Positions 1,096 to 5,957 of a DNA stretch of 6,777 nucleotides are shown here, piece after piece. The position numbers and the translations under genes were made by a program. A model generated the notes under the pieces. It was given only the letters and a program-made list of their open reading frames with translations, did no database searches and was not told the origin of the DNA. The number at the start of each line of letters is the position of its first letter. The first letter of the stretch is position 1. The stretch comes from Gemmatimonadaceae bacterium (GTDB lineage: Bacteria > Gemmatimonadota > Gemmatimonadetes > Gemmatimonadales > Gemmatimonadaceae): NCBI GenBank assembly GCA_013361745.1, contig JABFXM010000154.1:1-6777 (forward strand), given 5' to 3'.

Positions 1096-1650
1096 TCAGA
1101 CCTCCATGATCTCGGCTTCCTTCGCCTTGATCAGATCGTCGATCTTCTTGATCGCGTCGTCGTGCACCTTCTGGATGTCCTTCTCGAAGTGCTTCTTGTC
1201 GTCCTCGGGGACGCCGTCCGACTTCTTCACCTTGTCGCGCGCTTCCGTGCGCGCGTGGCGGATGGCGACGCGACCTTCCTCGGCGTACTTGTGGACGATC
1301 TTCACGAGGTCCTTGCGCCGCTGCTCGTTCATCGACGGCAACGGCACGCGGACGATGTTCCCCTGCACCGCCGGGTCGAGCCCGAGATCCGACTCGCGGA
1401 TCGCCTTCTCGACCGCCTTGATCTGCCCCTTGTCGAAGGGCGTCACGATCAGCATCCGCGGCTCCGGCGCGGAGACCGTCGCGACCTGGTTGATCGGCAT
1501 CTGCTGGCCGTACATCTCGACGCGCACGGTGTCGAGCATCGTCGGCGACGCCTTCCCCGAGCGGACGCCGGAGAACTCCTTGCGCGTGTTGTCGATCGCG
1601 CGGTCCATCTGCTGCCGCGCCGAATTGAGAATGGGTGTGAGTGCGCTCAT
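1096..1650 (-). CDS. frr: Ribosome recycling factor
   Basis: Acts with EF-G to split post-termination ribosomes so that subunits can be reused. The 184-residue length is typical of RRF. Helical domain I is formed by the N-terminal helix (about 1-30) and residues from about 105 to the end. Beta domain II lies between them and contains [12 protein letters not shown] (28-39). The signature [17 protein letters not shown] is at 101-117, and the conserved Arg-rich helix [12 protein letters not shown] is at 128-139. The last residues are rich in Lys, Asp and Glu, as usual. The ATG overlaps the pyrH stop as ATGA (4 nt) and no strong SD site is visible. Expression therefore probably depends on ribosomes finishing pyrH, which matters because pyrH has an internal stop. 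Confidence 0.98.
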
Positions 1651-2360
1651 CTGACGAGGGTGCCCACGCGCTCGCCGCGGGTCGCGGCCGCGACGGCGCC
1701 TTGGCTGTGGATGTTCAGCACGATCAGCGGAAGCTTGTTCTCGCTGCAGAGCGTGATCGCCGTCTGGTCCATCACCCCGAGCTGATCGACGATCACGTCG
1801 CGGTAGCTCATCTCGGTGAAGAACTTCGCCTGCGGGTCCTTCTTCGGGTCGGCCGAATACACCCCGTCGACGCTGGTCGCCTTGATGATGACGTCGGCCT
1901 TCATCTGGATCGCGCGCAGCACGGCGGCGGTGTCGGTGGAAAAATACGGGTTCCCCGTTCCCGCGGCAAAGATCACCGTCCGTCCCTTCTCGAAGTGCCG
2001 CAGCGCGCGGCGGCGGATGTACGGCTCCGCGAGCTACTCCATCCGGATCGCCGTCATAACACGGGTGTCGACGCCCATCCGCTCCAGCACGTCCTGCAGC
2101 GCCAGCGCGTTGATGACGGTGCCGAGCATCCCCATGTAGTCGGCGCCGACGCGGTCCATGCCGACCTTCGCCAGCTGTGCGCCGCGGACGATGTTCCCGC
2201 CCCCGATCACGAGCCCGACGCTGACTCCCTGATCAACCACATGCTTCACTTCACTGGCGAGCCGCTTCACGACGTCGAAGTCGAAGCCGAATCCTTTCTC
2301 CCCGGCGAGCGCCTCGCCGGAGAGCTTGAGGAGGATCCGCTTGTAGTGCAGGTCGGGCAC
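1647..2360 (-). pseudogene. pyrH: UMP kinase, reading frame interrupted by an in-frame TAG at codon 109
   Basis: Uridylate kinase (amino-acid kinase fold) phosphorylates UMP to UDP and is normally single-copy and essential. The frame opens at GTG 2360, 8 nt after the tsf stop, with an AGGAG about 11 nt upstream. Codons 1-108 contain [13 protein letters not shown] (6-18), [11 protein letters not shown] (51-61) and [17 protein letters not shown] (74-90). Codon 109 is TAG (2036-2034). The same frame continues without any shift as [18 protein letters not shown] (110-127), [14 protein letters not shown] (133-146) and DGVYSADP (165-172), and ends with TGA overlapping frr. Full length would be 237 codons, normal for PyrH. 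The family usually has a polar residue, often Gln, just before the (V/L)AEPYIRR segment, so CAG to TAG is the simplest origin. Without readthrough, the 108-residue fragment lacks the UMP- and ATP-site segments and should be inactive. Sequencing error is a live alternative. Confidence 0.9.
2034..2036 (-). other. pyrH: Internal amber codon in pyrH
   Basis: The plus strand reads cta here, which is TAG on the coding strand. The flanking codons are GAG (Glu108) and CTC (Leu110). Conserved UMP kinase sequence lies directly on both sides in the same frame, so a point substitution explains it and an insertion or deletion does not. Confidence 0.95.
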
Positions 2361-2368
2361 TGGTGGCC

Positions 2369-3250
2369 TTACTCCTGGCCCATCTGGAAGCGCGCGAAGC
2401 GGCGAATCTTCAGCCCCGCGCCTGCGGCGCTCACGATGTCGCGGATCGACTTCGAGTCGTCGCGGATCCACGGCTGGTCCACCAGCGTGACCTCCTTGTA
2501 GTACTTCTCGATCCGGCCGCCGACCATCTTCTCGACGATGTTCGCCGGCTTCCCGCTAGCCGCCGCCTGCTCGGTGAAGATGCGCCGCTCGCGGTCGACG
2601 AGATCCTGCGGGACCTCCTCGCGGTTCACCGCCGCCGGCACCGTCGGCACGCCCGCCGCGACGTGCTCGGCCACCGTGCGCGCCAGCTGCTGCACCGCAT
2701 CGCCGCTGCCGCCGGTCACCTCGACCATCGCCGCGACCTTGCCGTTGTGGTGGACGTAGGTGCCGAGCGCGCCGTCGGTCTTGAAGCGCGCGTAGCGGCG
2801 AACCACGAGGTTCTCACCGATCGTCCCCGACAGCTCCTTCAGCGCGCCTTCGACCGTCGTGCCGCCGACCTTCTGCGAGAGGAGCGCCGAGCCCTCGGCG
2901 TTGTTCACCACCCCGTCGATCGCGTCCGCCTTCAGCAGCGTGTCGGCGATCTGGTCGACGAGCTTGCCGAAGCCCTCGTTCCGCGCGACGAAGTCGGTCT
3001 CGGAGTTCACCTCGACGAGGACGCCGGTCTTCCCGTCCGGGCTCACGCGGGCGACGATCTTCCCCTCGCTCGCCGCGCGCCCCGCGCGCTTCTCGGCCTT
3101 CGCGATCCCCTTCTTGCGGAGGAGCTCGATGGCGGACTCCATGGTCCCCTTCGTCTCCTCGAGCGCCTTCTTGCATTCCATCATCCCGGCGCCGGTGCGC
3201 TGGCGGAGCTCCTGCACGTCCTTCGCCGTGAACGTCGTCGTCGTGGTCAT
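2369..3250 (-). CDS. tsf: Translation elongation factor Ts
   Basis: Guanine nucleotide exchange factor that releases GDP from EF-Tu in the cytosol. The 293-residue protein starts with a Thr-rich leader (codons ACC ACG ACG ACG ACG). A UBA-like N-terminal domain follows (about 7-45, with [16 protein letters not shown] at 15-30). Next comes the core with the EF-Tu-contacting TDFV motif at 85-88 inside [14 protein letters not shown]. Two dimerisation-type subdomains fill the rest, and the C-terminus ends [14 protein letters not shown], as in full-length EF-Ts. AGGGA about 7-8 nt before the ATG is a usable SD site. It lies 99 nt downstream of rpsB, the classic S2/EF-Ts pairing, and its TAA is 8 nt before the pyrH GTG. 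The gap upstream may carry its own promoter. Confidence 0.98.
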
Positions 3251-3349: not shown

Positions 3350-4264
3350 TCAGGCGCCGGCTTCCTCGCCCTCGTCGCCGCCCTCGGCGCCCTCACCGCC
3401 TTCGGCTGCCTCTCCCTCGGCGCCGCCCTTCCGCATCGCGGCGATCGCCTCGGGCTTCGCCCGGCGCCGGCGCGGACGGCGACGGCGCTTGCGCTCGTCG
3501 TCACCCGCCGCGGCTTCCATCCCGCGATCGCTGCTGTAGGTGCTCTCCTCGCCTTCCTCGACCGACGCGCGCACCGGAGCCTCGCGGCGCGCCTCCTCGA
3601 TCGTGTCGGCGATGGTCTTCGTGATCAGCTCGACCGAGCGGATCGCGTCGTCGTTGCCCGCGATCGGCACCGTGATCAGATCCGGGTCCGCGTTCGTGTC
3701 GACGACGGCGACCATCGGGATCCCGAGCTTGTTCGCCTCGCTGACCGCGATGCGCTCCTTCTTCGAGTCGACGACGAAGATGAGGCCGGGCAGGCGCATC
3801 ATGTTGCTGATGCCGCTGAAGTACTTCGCGAGCTTGTCGCGCTCGCGCGACATCATCAGCTGCTCCTTCTTCGTGTAGTTCGAGAACTCGCCGCCCTCTT
3901 CCGCACCGGCCTGCAGCTCCTTGAGCCGACGGAGCTGCTTCTTCACGGTGTTGAAGTTGGTGAGCATCCCGCCGAGCCAGCGCTCGGTGACGTACATCGC
4001 GCCGCAGCGCTCCGCTTCCTGCCGGACGAGGCCGGCGAGCTGGCGCTTGGTGCAGACGAAGAGGACGTTCTCGCCGCGCATGATGACCTCGCGCACGAGC
4101 TTCTGCGCGAGCTCCACCTGCCGGAGCGTCTTCTGGAGATCGATGATGTGGATCCCGTTCCGCTCCGCGAAATTGAAGTGGCGCATCTTCGGGTTCCAGC
4201 GGCGGGTCTGGTGTCCGAAATGGACACCGGCGGCGAGCAACTGCTCGAGGGTGATGCCGGCCAT
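3350..4264 (-). CDS. rpsB: 30S ribosomal protein S2 with a long charged C-terminal extension
   Basis: Small-subunit protein S2, which binds late at the 30S neck and aids recruitment of S1 and mRNA. The core (about 1-228) is canonical: LLAAGVHFGHQTRRWNPKM (9-27), NGIHIIDLQKT (36-46), ERWLGGMLTNF (94-104), LPGLIFVVDSKKE (158-170), IPMVAVVDTNADP (182-194) and IAGNDDAIRSVELI (201-214). Beyond it lies an extension of about 75 residues. This has an acidic linker (EEGEES near 236-241), a basic block (KRRRRPRRRRAK, 259-270), then a Gly/Ala/Glu tail (GGAEGEAAEGG onward) to residue 304. The tail is in frame, with coding base usage like the core. A clean AGGAG lies 8 nt before the ATG. It is 142 nt after rpsI and 99 nt before tsf. 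Confidence 0.97.
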   Translation of the reverse strand: MAGITLEQLLAAGVHFGHQTRRWNPKMRHFNFAERNGIHIIDLQKTLRQVELAQKLVREVIMRGENVLFVCTKRQLAGLVRQEAERCGAMYVTERWLGGMLTNFNTVKKQLRRLKELQAGAEEGGEFSNYTKKEQLMMSRERDKLAKYFSGISNMMRLPGLIFVVDSKKERIAVSEANKLGIPMVAVVDTNADPDLITVPIAGNDDAIRSVELITKTIADTIEEARREAPVRASVEEGEESTYSSDRGMEAAAGDDERKRRRRPRRRRAKPEAIAAMRKGGAEGEAAEGGEGAEGGDEGEEAGA

Positions 4265-4366
4265 GCGAACTGCTCCTGATCGGTTCGTGTCGTCCGCGGC
4301 TCTTCGCTGCCATCGCCGACCGGAACGTATCCGGCACCCGACGACGACTGGAACCGCGTGTGAGAT

Positions 4367-4393
4367 CGGTGCGCGCGACGATCGCGCGCACCG
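4367..4393 (-). terminator. Perfect 12-bp hairpin just after rpsI
   Basis: CGGTGCGCGCGA (4367-4378) and TCGCGCGCACCG (4382-4393) are exact reverse complements around a CGA loop, 13 nt past the rpsI stop codon. The position suits the end of the rplM-rpsI transcript. On the minus strand, however, the stem is followed by ATCTCACACG and not a run of T, so intrinsic termination is doubtful. It may instead protect or process the 3' end, or act as a partial terminator before rpsB. Confidence 0.45.
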
Positions 4394-4406
4394 TGCTGCG
4401 TCCTGC

Positions 4407-4799
4407 CTAGCGCTTGCTGAACTGGAAGCGCTTGCGGGCCTTCGGACGGCCCGGCTTCTTGCGCTCCACCGCGCGCGCGTCGCGCGTCAGGAGCCCGAGG
4501 TCACGCAGCTTGCGCCGATGACCTTCGTCGATCTTCACCAGCGCGCGGGCGACCGCGAGCCGGAGCGCGCCGGCCTGACCGGTGACGCCACCACCCTCGA
4601 GGTTCGCCTTCACGTCGTAGCGGCCGAGGAGGTCGGTCGCGGTGAACGGCTGCTGGATCGCGGAGACGAGCGAGGGGCGCGGGAAATAGTCGCCGAGCGT
4701 CCGCCCGTTGACGTCCCACTTGCCGCTGCCGGCCTTCAGGTACACGCGGCAGACCGCTTCCTTCCGCCGACCGACGCTGTGGATCTGGCTGTCCGCCAT
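4407..4799 (-). CDS. rpsI: 30S ribosomal protein S9
   Basis: Small-subunit head protein whose C-terminal tail reaches the P-site tRNA. The product is 130 residues, normal for bacteria. It shows the N-terminal GRRKEAVCRVYL (10-21), the glycine-rich loop EGGGVTGQAGALRLAVARAL (68-87), and the universal basic tail with KKPGRPKARKR at 114-124 ending FQFSKR. The frame stops at TAG exactly after SKR, so TAG is a true stop codon in this genome. Its ATG overlaps the rplM stop by one base (TAATG), so the two proteins are translationally coupled, as in the usual L13-S9 operon. The SD site is weak, consistent with coupling. Confidence 0.99.
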   Translation of the reverse strand: MADSQIHSVGRRKEAVCRVYLKAGSGKWDVNGRTLGDYFPRPSLVSAIQQPFTATDLLGRYDVKANLEGGGVTGQAGALRLAVARALVKIDEGHRRKLRDLGLLTRDARAVERKKPGRPKARKRFQFSKR

Positions 4800-5248
4800 T
4801 ACTTCGTCTCGCTCTGCTTGAGGTTCAGGGTCTTGGGCTGCTGGGCCTTGTGCGGATGCTCGGCGCCGGGGTAGACACGGAGCTTCAGCCGCAGCTTCTG
4901 GCGGCCGAGGGCGTTCTTCGGGAGCATCCCGTAGACCGCCTTCTCGATCACCCGCTCCGGGTGCTTCGCGATCACTTCCGCGAAGGGGGTGAAGCGCTCG
5001 TGTCCCATGTAGCCCGTGTGGCGGAAGTACTGCTTCTGCTCCGCCTTCTTGCCGGTCACCGCGACCTTCGCCGCGTTGATGACGATGACGTTGTCGCCCG
5101 TGTCCATGTGCGGGGTGAACGTCGGCTTGTGCTTGCCGCGGATGATCTTGGCGATCTGCGACGCCAGGCGGCCGAGCACCATGCCCTCGGCGTCGACGAC
5201 ATACCAGTCGTGCTGGATGTCGGTCGGGGTGGCGGTGAAAGTCTTCAT
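4799..5248 (-). CDS. rplM: 50S ribosomal protein L13
   Basis: Early-assembling large-subunit protein. I chose the ATG at 5248 because it gives the canonical start [20 protein letters not shown] and 149 residues. The frame stays open further upstream, but that part is not L13-like and overlaps the leader and promoter. Motifs are [20 protein letters not shown] (22-41), [17 protein letters not shown] (52-68), YFRHTGYMG (74-82), and the signature [14 protein letters not shown] (103-116) followed by [11 protein letters not shown] (123-133). Only a poor GGA lies about 8 nt before the ATG, unusual for a highly expressed ribosomal gene and suggestive of leader control. It is the first gene of a two-gene unit with rpsI, driven by the promoter at 5332-5360. 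Confidence 0.98.
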
Positions 5249-5279
5249 GACAGGTCCAGAGAATTCAGTCGGAGCCCTC

Positions 5280-5299
5280 GCGCATCCGGATCGGTGCGC
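5280..5299 (-). promoter_or_regulatory. Stem-loop in the rplM leader
   Basis: GCGCA (5280-5284) pairs with TGCGC (5295-5299) and CCG (5286-5288) pairs with CGG (5292-5294). Position 5285 is a one-base bulge and the loop is three bases. It lies about 31 nt upstream of the rplM start codon, inside the predicted 5' UTR. L13 is known to repress its own operon in E. coli, so a feedback site here is conceivable but unproven. Confidence 0.3.
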
Positions 5300-5331
5300 C
5301 GAAGGCCCTAGGGGTTTTTCGACAGACAAGT

Positions 5332-5360
5332 AAGCTACGAAAGGAGTTAGGCGTTGTCAA
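5332..5360 (-). promoter_or_regulatory. Sigma-70-type promoter of rplM-rpsI
   Basis: On the minus strand a perfect -35 box TTGACA (5360-5355) is followed after exactly 17 nt by TAGCTT (5337-5332) as the -10. Initiation would fall near 5320-5327 and give a leader of roughly 70-80 nt. The -10 keeps the key first TA and last T. It lies directly upstream of a ribosomal protein operon, where a strong housekeeping promoter is expected. Confidence 0.75.
5341..5346 (+). promoter_or_regulatory. Shine-Dalgarno-like AAGGAG before a TTG codon
   Basis: AAGGAG lies 7 nt before a TTG at 5354 that opens the same frame as the exported-protein gene. This argues for an upstream start adding 17 residues. The site falls inside the spacer of the opposite-strand rplM promoter, so it may be coincidental. 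Confidence 0.35.
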
Positions 5361-5404
5361 CGGACTGGGCTTGCGCGATCTCGGCGTCCTCGCGAGCGTT
5401 GCGC

Positions 5405-5950
5405 ATGGCCATCTCGCACCCCTCCCCGAGCCCTCGCCAGAGGCCCGCACATCGCGCCGTCGCGGCGTTAGTCGCTGGCATCGCCGCGTTCGTCTCGGTC
5501 GCCGCTTCGTGCGGCGGTCGCAACGACGCCACCCTCACCGGCCTCTGCGAGGGGCACGCGGCGACGCAGCGCGTCGCGGCGACGGTCGACACGGTCCTCC
5601 CCTACGCGGGCGCCGGCCTCGCCGCGCTGAAGGGCACGCGCTTCACCCTCGGTCTCGCCTTCTCGCCGCCGCCGCCGACCGGCCCGGCCGCGGGCACCGC
5701 CGAGTGCCAGGGCGCGATCGGAGAGGCGCGCTTCAGCGGCGACCTGCCGGCGCCGCTTCGAACCGCGGCCGCGGAGAACGGCATCGCCGGATGGCGGATC
5801 GAGGGCGACACGATCCTCGTCGGACTCAACCCGCGCGCGCGCGACAACAACCTCGTGATGTCGCTCCCGCTGAAGGGCGGACGCGGCCACTGGTCGCTCT
5901 CGACCTTCGCCGGCGAAGTCGCGCGCGGAAACGCGACCGCGGGACGTTGA
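5405..5950 (+). CDS. Unrecognised exported protein, putative lipoprotein
   Basis: I do not recognise the family. Read from ATG 5405, it is 181 residues. A basic N-terminus (RQRPAHR, 11-17) and a hydrophobic stretch (AVAALVAGIAAFVSVAAS, 18-35) lead directly to Cys36, giving a lipoprotein-like SVAASC. This is a loose lipobox, since the -3 position is Ala and not Leu. A mature domain of about 145 residues follows. It has Cys48 (GLCEG) and Cys101 (AECQG), a possible disulfide pair. It also has a Pro run (FSPPPPTGP, 86-94) and a C-terminal region with alternating hydrophobic stretches (WRIEGDTILVGLNP, MSLPLKGGRGHWSLS) that looks beta-rich. High third-position GC along the frame supports a real gene. 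An alternative start, TTG at 5354, has a far better SD site but would put an unusual 17-residue extension before the signal. The gene is divergent from rplM and converges on the biotin-carrier gene with 7 nt between the stop codons. Confidence 0.75.
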   Translation: MAISHPSPSPRQRPAHRAVAALVAGIAAFVSVAASCGGRNDATLTGLCEGHAATQRVAATVDTVLPYAGAGLAALKGTRFTLGLAFSPPPPTGPAAGTAECQGAIGEARFSGDLPAPLRTAAAENGIAGWRIEGDTILVGLNPRARDNNLVMSLPLKGGRGHWSLSTFAGEVARGNATAGR

Positions 5951-5957
5951 AGCGCCG

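Follow-up and report, generated by a model that had tools for sequence, protein, structure and literature searches.

An in-frame TAG private to one draft Gemmatimonadaceae genome interrupts its pyrH gene, most likely as a single-base assembly error

UMP kinase, the product of pyrH, is normally an indispensable enzyme. In-frame stops inside bacterial genes can arise in several ways: spurious stops of this kind are a recognised category in draft metagenome assemblies, and peroxiredoxins are known in which an in-frame TGA encodes selenocysteine. In TAG-recoded genomes, TAG is read as an amino acid, as is reported for some phages (PMC11210395, PMC7886860).

The locus considered here carries a TAG in the middle of pyrH. 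The window, by which we mean the whole stretch of DNA that was analysed, is the 6,777-base contig C383. It belongs to a draft genome that totals 2,970,068 bases over 619 contigs, with an estimated completeness of 72.33% and contamination of 3.32%; judged by PyrH, the closest relatives with a name are metagenome-assembled genomes assigned to Gemmatimonadaceae and Gemmatimonadetes. On the minus strand the window holds, in this order, what we take to be rplM, rpsI, rpsB, tsf, pyrH, frr and uppS, with pyrH identified by profile TIGR02075. The two neighbours of pyrH, presumably tsf upstream (2369..3250, minus strand) and frr downstream (1096..1650, minus strand; named from its sequence and the gene order), are both uninterrupted open reading frames that could be aligned to relatives. 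A tRNA gene was not found in the window, and a plasmid search with the pyrH region returned 29 records at 60-80% identity that have no bearing on the stop.

The interrupted pyrH frame and its relatives

The pyrH frame comprises 237 codons on the minus strand, from a GTG start at 2358-2360 to a TGA stop at 1647-1649, which shares bases with the ATG of frr. Codon readout gives ATC CGG ATG GAG TAG CTC GCG GAG CCG for the middle of the frame and places the TAG at codon 109 (2034..2036, minus strand), just as the original prediction had it. On either side of this codon the bacterial UMP kinase profile (TIGR02075, pyrH_bact, length 233) is matched over its whole length and in one frame, yet as two pieces: codons 1-108 including the GTG start (2037..2360, minus strand; 108 aa) match positions 1-103 with 138.1 bits and an E value of 3.4e-40, and codons 110-237 plus the TGA stop (1647..2033, minus strand; 128 aa) match positions 106-232 with 168 bits and an E value of 2.6e-49. 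The prediction that the distal half has been preserved was thus borne out by the rear piece. The curated cut-off of 243.9 bits, which applies to an uninterrupted frame, is not reached by pyrH, as the TAG separates the pieces. Since the gene continues across the stop without loss or frame change, the two pieces represent one gene rather than a chance pair of open reading frames. Rare codons make up 16 of the 237 (6.8%, versus 9.1% in the long open reading frames surveyed), and the lack of an excess gives no indication of gene decay. Recent origin, artefact or readthrough, the choices originally offered for the stop, are in our judgment the right ones.

Comparison with sister genomes, as had been proposed, showed the stop to be private to the window. 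We matched pyrH in 56 of the 60 genomes searched, the window's own included, and the other 55 copies are all free of an internal stop. A wider family search matched the gene in 170 of 179 genomes and, among the matches listed, only the window's copy has a stop. The genus is represented by one further genome, whose assembly lacks pyrH but matches window positions 3497-5954 at 81%. At column 109, every one of 99 aligned relative loci has a sense codon (GAG 60, GAA 28, TCG 7, TCC 2, ACG 2), although these loci, 80 named and 19 further ones, are not independent because several of the 19 probably lie on the same contigs as some of the 80. The corresponding residue is Glu at 88 loci, Ser at nine, Thr at two and Gln at none; among the 80 named loci, which were fetched with six patterns, one of them ending at column 109 and favouring Glu, the figures are 70 Glu, 8 Ser and 2 Thr. 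Glu also occupies this column in the nearest database protein, the intact P0001 (98% identical), and in 13 other aligned proteins drawn from the 120 matches listed. A stop conserved among relatives, as programmed readthrough would need, was therefore not what we found. Nor do the relatives support the expectation of a CAG codon, with G at 2036: as they use Glu, Ser or Thr and never Gln at the 99 loci, we reject an origin of the TAG by a Gln-to-amber change.

Stop codon use and other interrupted genes of the draft genome

Our stop survey covered 120 contigs and the window, together 670,544 bases or 22.6% of the genome, and counted 394 stops after coding sequence, a few internal ones included: 272 TGA, 101 TAG and 21 TAA. 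TAG terminates uppS, rpsI and the biotin-carrier gene, as the open reading frames confirm and as had been pointed out from the outset. An alternative code would lead one to expect TAG to be absent or rare as a terminator; its frequency argues against reassignment, so that wholesale reassignment, already considered a poor fit, can be discarded. The search for a suppressor tRNA, likewise called for by the original prediction, came back empty: no CUA anticodon occurs among the 30 tRNA matches of the 72%-complete assembly, 29 of which were named by ARAGORN while the thirtieth, which was not, has no CTA within its loop, and ARAGORN found none on the 120 surveyed contigs either. The assembly gives a single release-factor match, which we presume from its sequence to be RF2-like, versus two in 20 of the 24 genomes searched, among them the one from the same genus. 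TAG reassignment would lead one to expect RF1 to be lost or changed; its absence is no surprise, however, in an assembly that is 72% complete.

A separate observation concerns tRNA structure in this genome. Contig C377 carries at 3663-3784 (L052 1501-1622) a tRNA body (RF00005, 43.5 bits) whose anticodon loop is 56 nt long; it adjoins a tRNA-Pro(cgg) gene and was not called by ARAGORN. Its insertion measures about 49 nt, and a match across an insertion of this type was obtained in one of 59 other genomes (L293 1504-1638, 58.8 bits), with a 68-nt loop, a similar hairpin and, by eye, paired changes in the acceptor stem. If the C377 loop were spliced, the tRNA could read with the anticodon UCG (Arg). 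A bacterial tRNA with a short, conserved interruption would be unusual, and a literature search on interrupted tRNA found no report.

A codon-use scan of the surveyed sequence picked out 17 stops that are flanked by coding sequence before and after. By eye, four of them each interrupt a single gene, namely the TAG of pyrH, two further TAGs in gcvT and in a probable SMP-30/gluconolactonase-like (SGL-like) gene, and a TGA in a peroxiredoxin gene; the other 13, judged by eye alone, mark a gene end followed by another gene or were left undecided. A relaxed scan flagged 22 stops, 12 in common with the first scan and 10 new. The gcvT stop (contig C411, L238, 2079-2081, minus strand) has GCV_T and GCV_T_C matches on either side; 14 of 15 aligned relative loci have Lys (AAG) and one has Arg (AGG) at this codon, and the full-length gcvT matches of relatives contain no stop. 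For the TAG on contig C12 (L065, 1606-1608, minus strand), the family match is weak, with 24.8 bits for the rear piece versus a cut-off of 26.3 and no match for the front piece, and the SGL-like gene is probably the third broken gene of the assembly. The pyrH and gcvT stops, the two best supported, stand in for different residues, a pattern that scattered single-base errors would produce. With this genome's own codon use, chance single-base changes to a stop would yield TAG in 69.8% of cases, or in 63.5% when only G-to-T and C-to-A changes are counted; three TAGs thus need no recoding, and the TAG-only pattern can be dismissed as evidence of suppression. As the scan detects about 54% of coding sites across 170,730 coding codons, the three events would imply, by our own arithmetic, roughly 4 substitutions in every 10,000 bases; leaving out the window, which had been chosen for its stop, lowers the figure to about 3. 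A rate of about 3-4 per 10,000 bases would plausibly fit a thin assembly.

The background of such stops was also surveyed in relatives, using the seven window genes aligned to the 80 named loci of relatives, which together supply 492 gene copies and 104,325 aa. By eye, 11 of the 15 stop rows are ragged natural ends of rpsB and three fall in a misaligned tsf stretch of two loci. The remaining row lies within a gene: rpsB of a relative metagenome-assembled genome (L107, position 135) has an internal TAA, 135 bases away from where its contig ends. An essential gene with an in-frame stop is therefore found in another draft genome of the group as well, at a lower frequency than the scan suggests for the window's own. 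The notion of a window full of errors is not supported, as it has private residues at five of 575 conserved columns (rank 19 of 67). Two of these five are AAT (Asn) codons, one at frr residue 9 (1624-1626, minus strand), where relatives have Lys (AAG 67, AAA 11), and one at rpsB residue 31 (4172-4174, minus strand), where they have Ile (ATC 46, ATT 23). AAT is rare in this genome (2.29 per 1,000 versus 21.97 for AAC), and the private AAT codons hint at unselected base changes.

The TGA in the peroxiredoxin gene, which we take to be Bcp-like, is a different case. It lies on contig C411 (L238, 4092-4094, minus strand) within an AhpC-TSA match, at a Cys column where three of 11 aligned relatives have TGA and eight have Cys, and many further matches listed each show one TGA. 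A selB match above the curated cut-off is present in the genome, in which no tRNA-Sec above its own cut-off was found. This TGA is probably a selenocysteine codon; it stands out as probably recoded because relatives share the stop.

Competing explanations

In our view the pyrH TAG probably reflects one wrong base in the consensus of a fragmentary metagenome assembly, or else a rare damaged or minority allele that the assembler picked up; compared with this, a novel reading of the genetic code is the less likely interpretation. What is observed in its favour are the stop itself, the intact flanks, the absence of the stop from relatives and the other in-frame stops of the assembly. The pyrH of the population would then be open at codon 109, as in the relatives seen, and one wrong or minority base in presumably thin coverage would have replaced a sense codon by a stop; the remainder of the gene would look selected because it is selected in real cells. 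A real nonsense mutation of recent date, present in some of the population (a strain mixture, or a lineage that is dying out) and picked up by the assembler, would explain much the same data, given that the flanks of pyrH are intact, that so close a relative as P0001 has an uninterrupted gene and that TAG is one base away from the relatives' commonest codon. Such cells would however lack UMP kinase and should not dominate an assembly, the enzyme being indispensable, which makes this explanation unlikely. Somewhat less likely still is a real TAG that an amber suppressor tRNA or leaky termination allows ribosomes to pass, with some full-length UMP kinase being made. It would be in line with the preserved distal parts behind the TAGs of pyrH, gcvT and probably the SGL-like gene, and with the tolerance for Glu, Ser or Thr at this column in relatives, but the 29 tRNAs named by ARAGORN and the loop of the thirtieth offered no CUA anticodon in the 72%-complete assembly, a strong suppressor would disturb the ends of the 101 of 394 coding stretches that close with TAG, and the stop is absent from every relative seen.

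A split enzyme, its halves made separately and the rear one by reinitiation, appears very improbable to us. The first in-frame start past the TAG is a GTG, codon 129 (1974..1976, minus strand), at a distance of 19 codons, and a predicted reinitiation there would give a 109-aa piece (open reading frame 1647..1976). Database searches with each pyrH piece, which can match only proteins shorter than the whole enzyme, listed among 120 rear pieces a 109-aa one, P0210 (97% identity, on a 1,561-base contig), which begins exactly at this residue. P0210 differs from the window at three residues, as a protein of another strain might; it may be a fragment cut off by the edge of its contig, or else another interrupted copy. 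The split would however cost residues 109-128, most of them invariant in a 15-row alignment, and among the 120 front fragments listed none has a length of 108 and none exceeds 84% identity. The least credible of the explanations is a second, intact pyrH elsewhere in the genome that would make the window's copy a pseudogene. Going by the estimated completeness, the assembly lacks over a quarter of the genome; yet the second copy that the original prediction suggested looking for did not turn up in the 72%-complete assembly, which contains one UMP kinase match only. One match is also the rule in 165 of the 170 matched genomes, the window's own included, with two in the other five, and the window's pyrH sits in its place between tsf and frr. 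The other amino-acid-kinase match of the genome, on contig C369 and without a stop, was considered as a candidate and rejected, its frame-unverified slice matching no NCBIfam family.

That amber codons are real in several conserved genes of this lineage, the essential pyrH among them, and that its cells survive by natural low-level amber suppression beside TAG terminators strikes us as a distant prospect, ranking below readthrough of the pyrH stop as such and above the split enzyme. If true, an essential gene would depend on stop readthrough, and natural amber suppression would operate in a bacterium that still ends genes with TAG. With an assembly error as the preferred reading, the case illustrates that draft metagenome genomes can hold scattered in-frame stops in essential genes, and that the background of spurious stops needs measuring before recoding claims are made.

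Comparison with known systems

Both window pieces align around the stop with UMP kinase PyrH as represented by TIGR02075 and by the solved bacterial uridylate kinases 8yh1 and 2bne, and P0001, the relative with an intact frame, can be aligned to 8yh1 across residues 5-236; what sets the window apart from this enzyme is the break of its frame at codon 109. The likeness to selenoprotein peroxiredoxins is found elsewhere in the same genome, in the peroxiredoxin gene with an in-frame stop common to relatives and with selB present; unlike that TGA, which recurs at a Cys column, the TAG of pyrH does not recur. TAG-recoded genomes share with the window's genome the presence of TAG inside conserved genes, whereas the latter uses TAG as a common terminator, has few TAG-bearing genes and yielded no CUA tRNA. 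With the spurious stops of draft assemblies, the window's stop has in common that it is single, private and placed in an otherwise conserved gene, that other genes of the same assembly are interrupted as well, and that an ochre stop occurs in rpsB of another metagenome-assembled genome.
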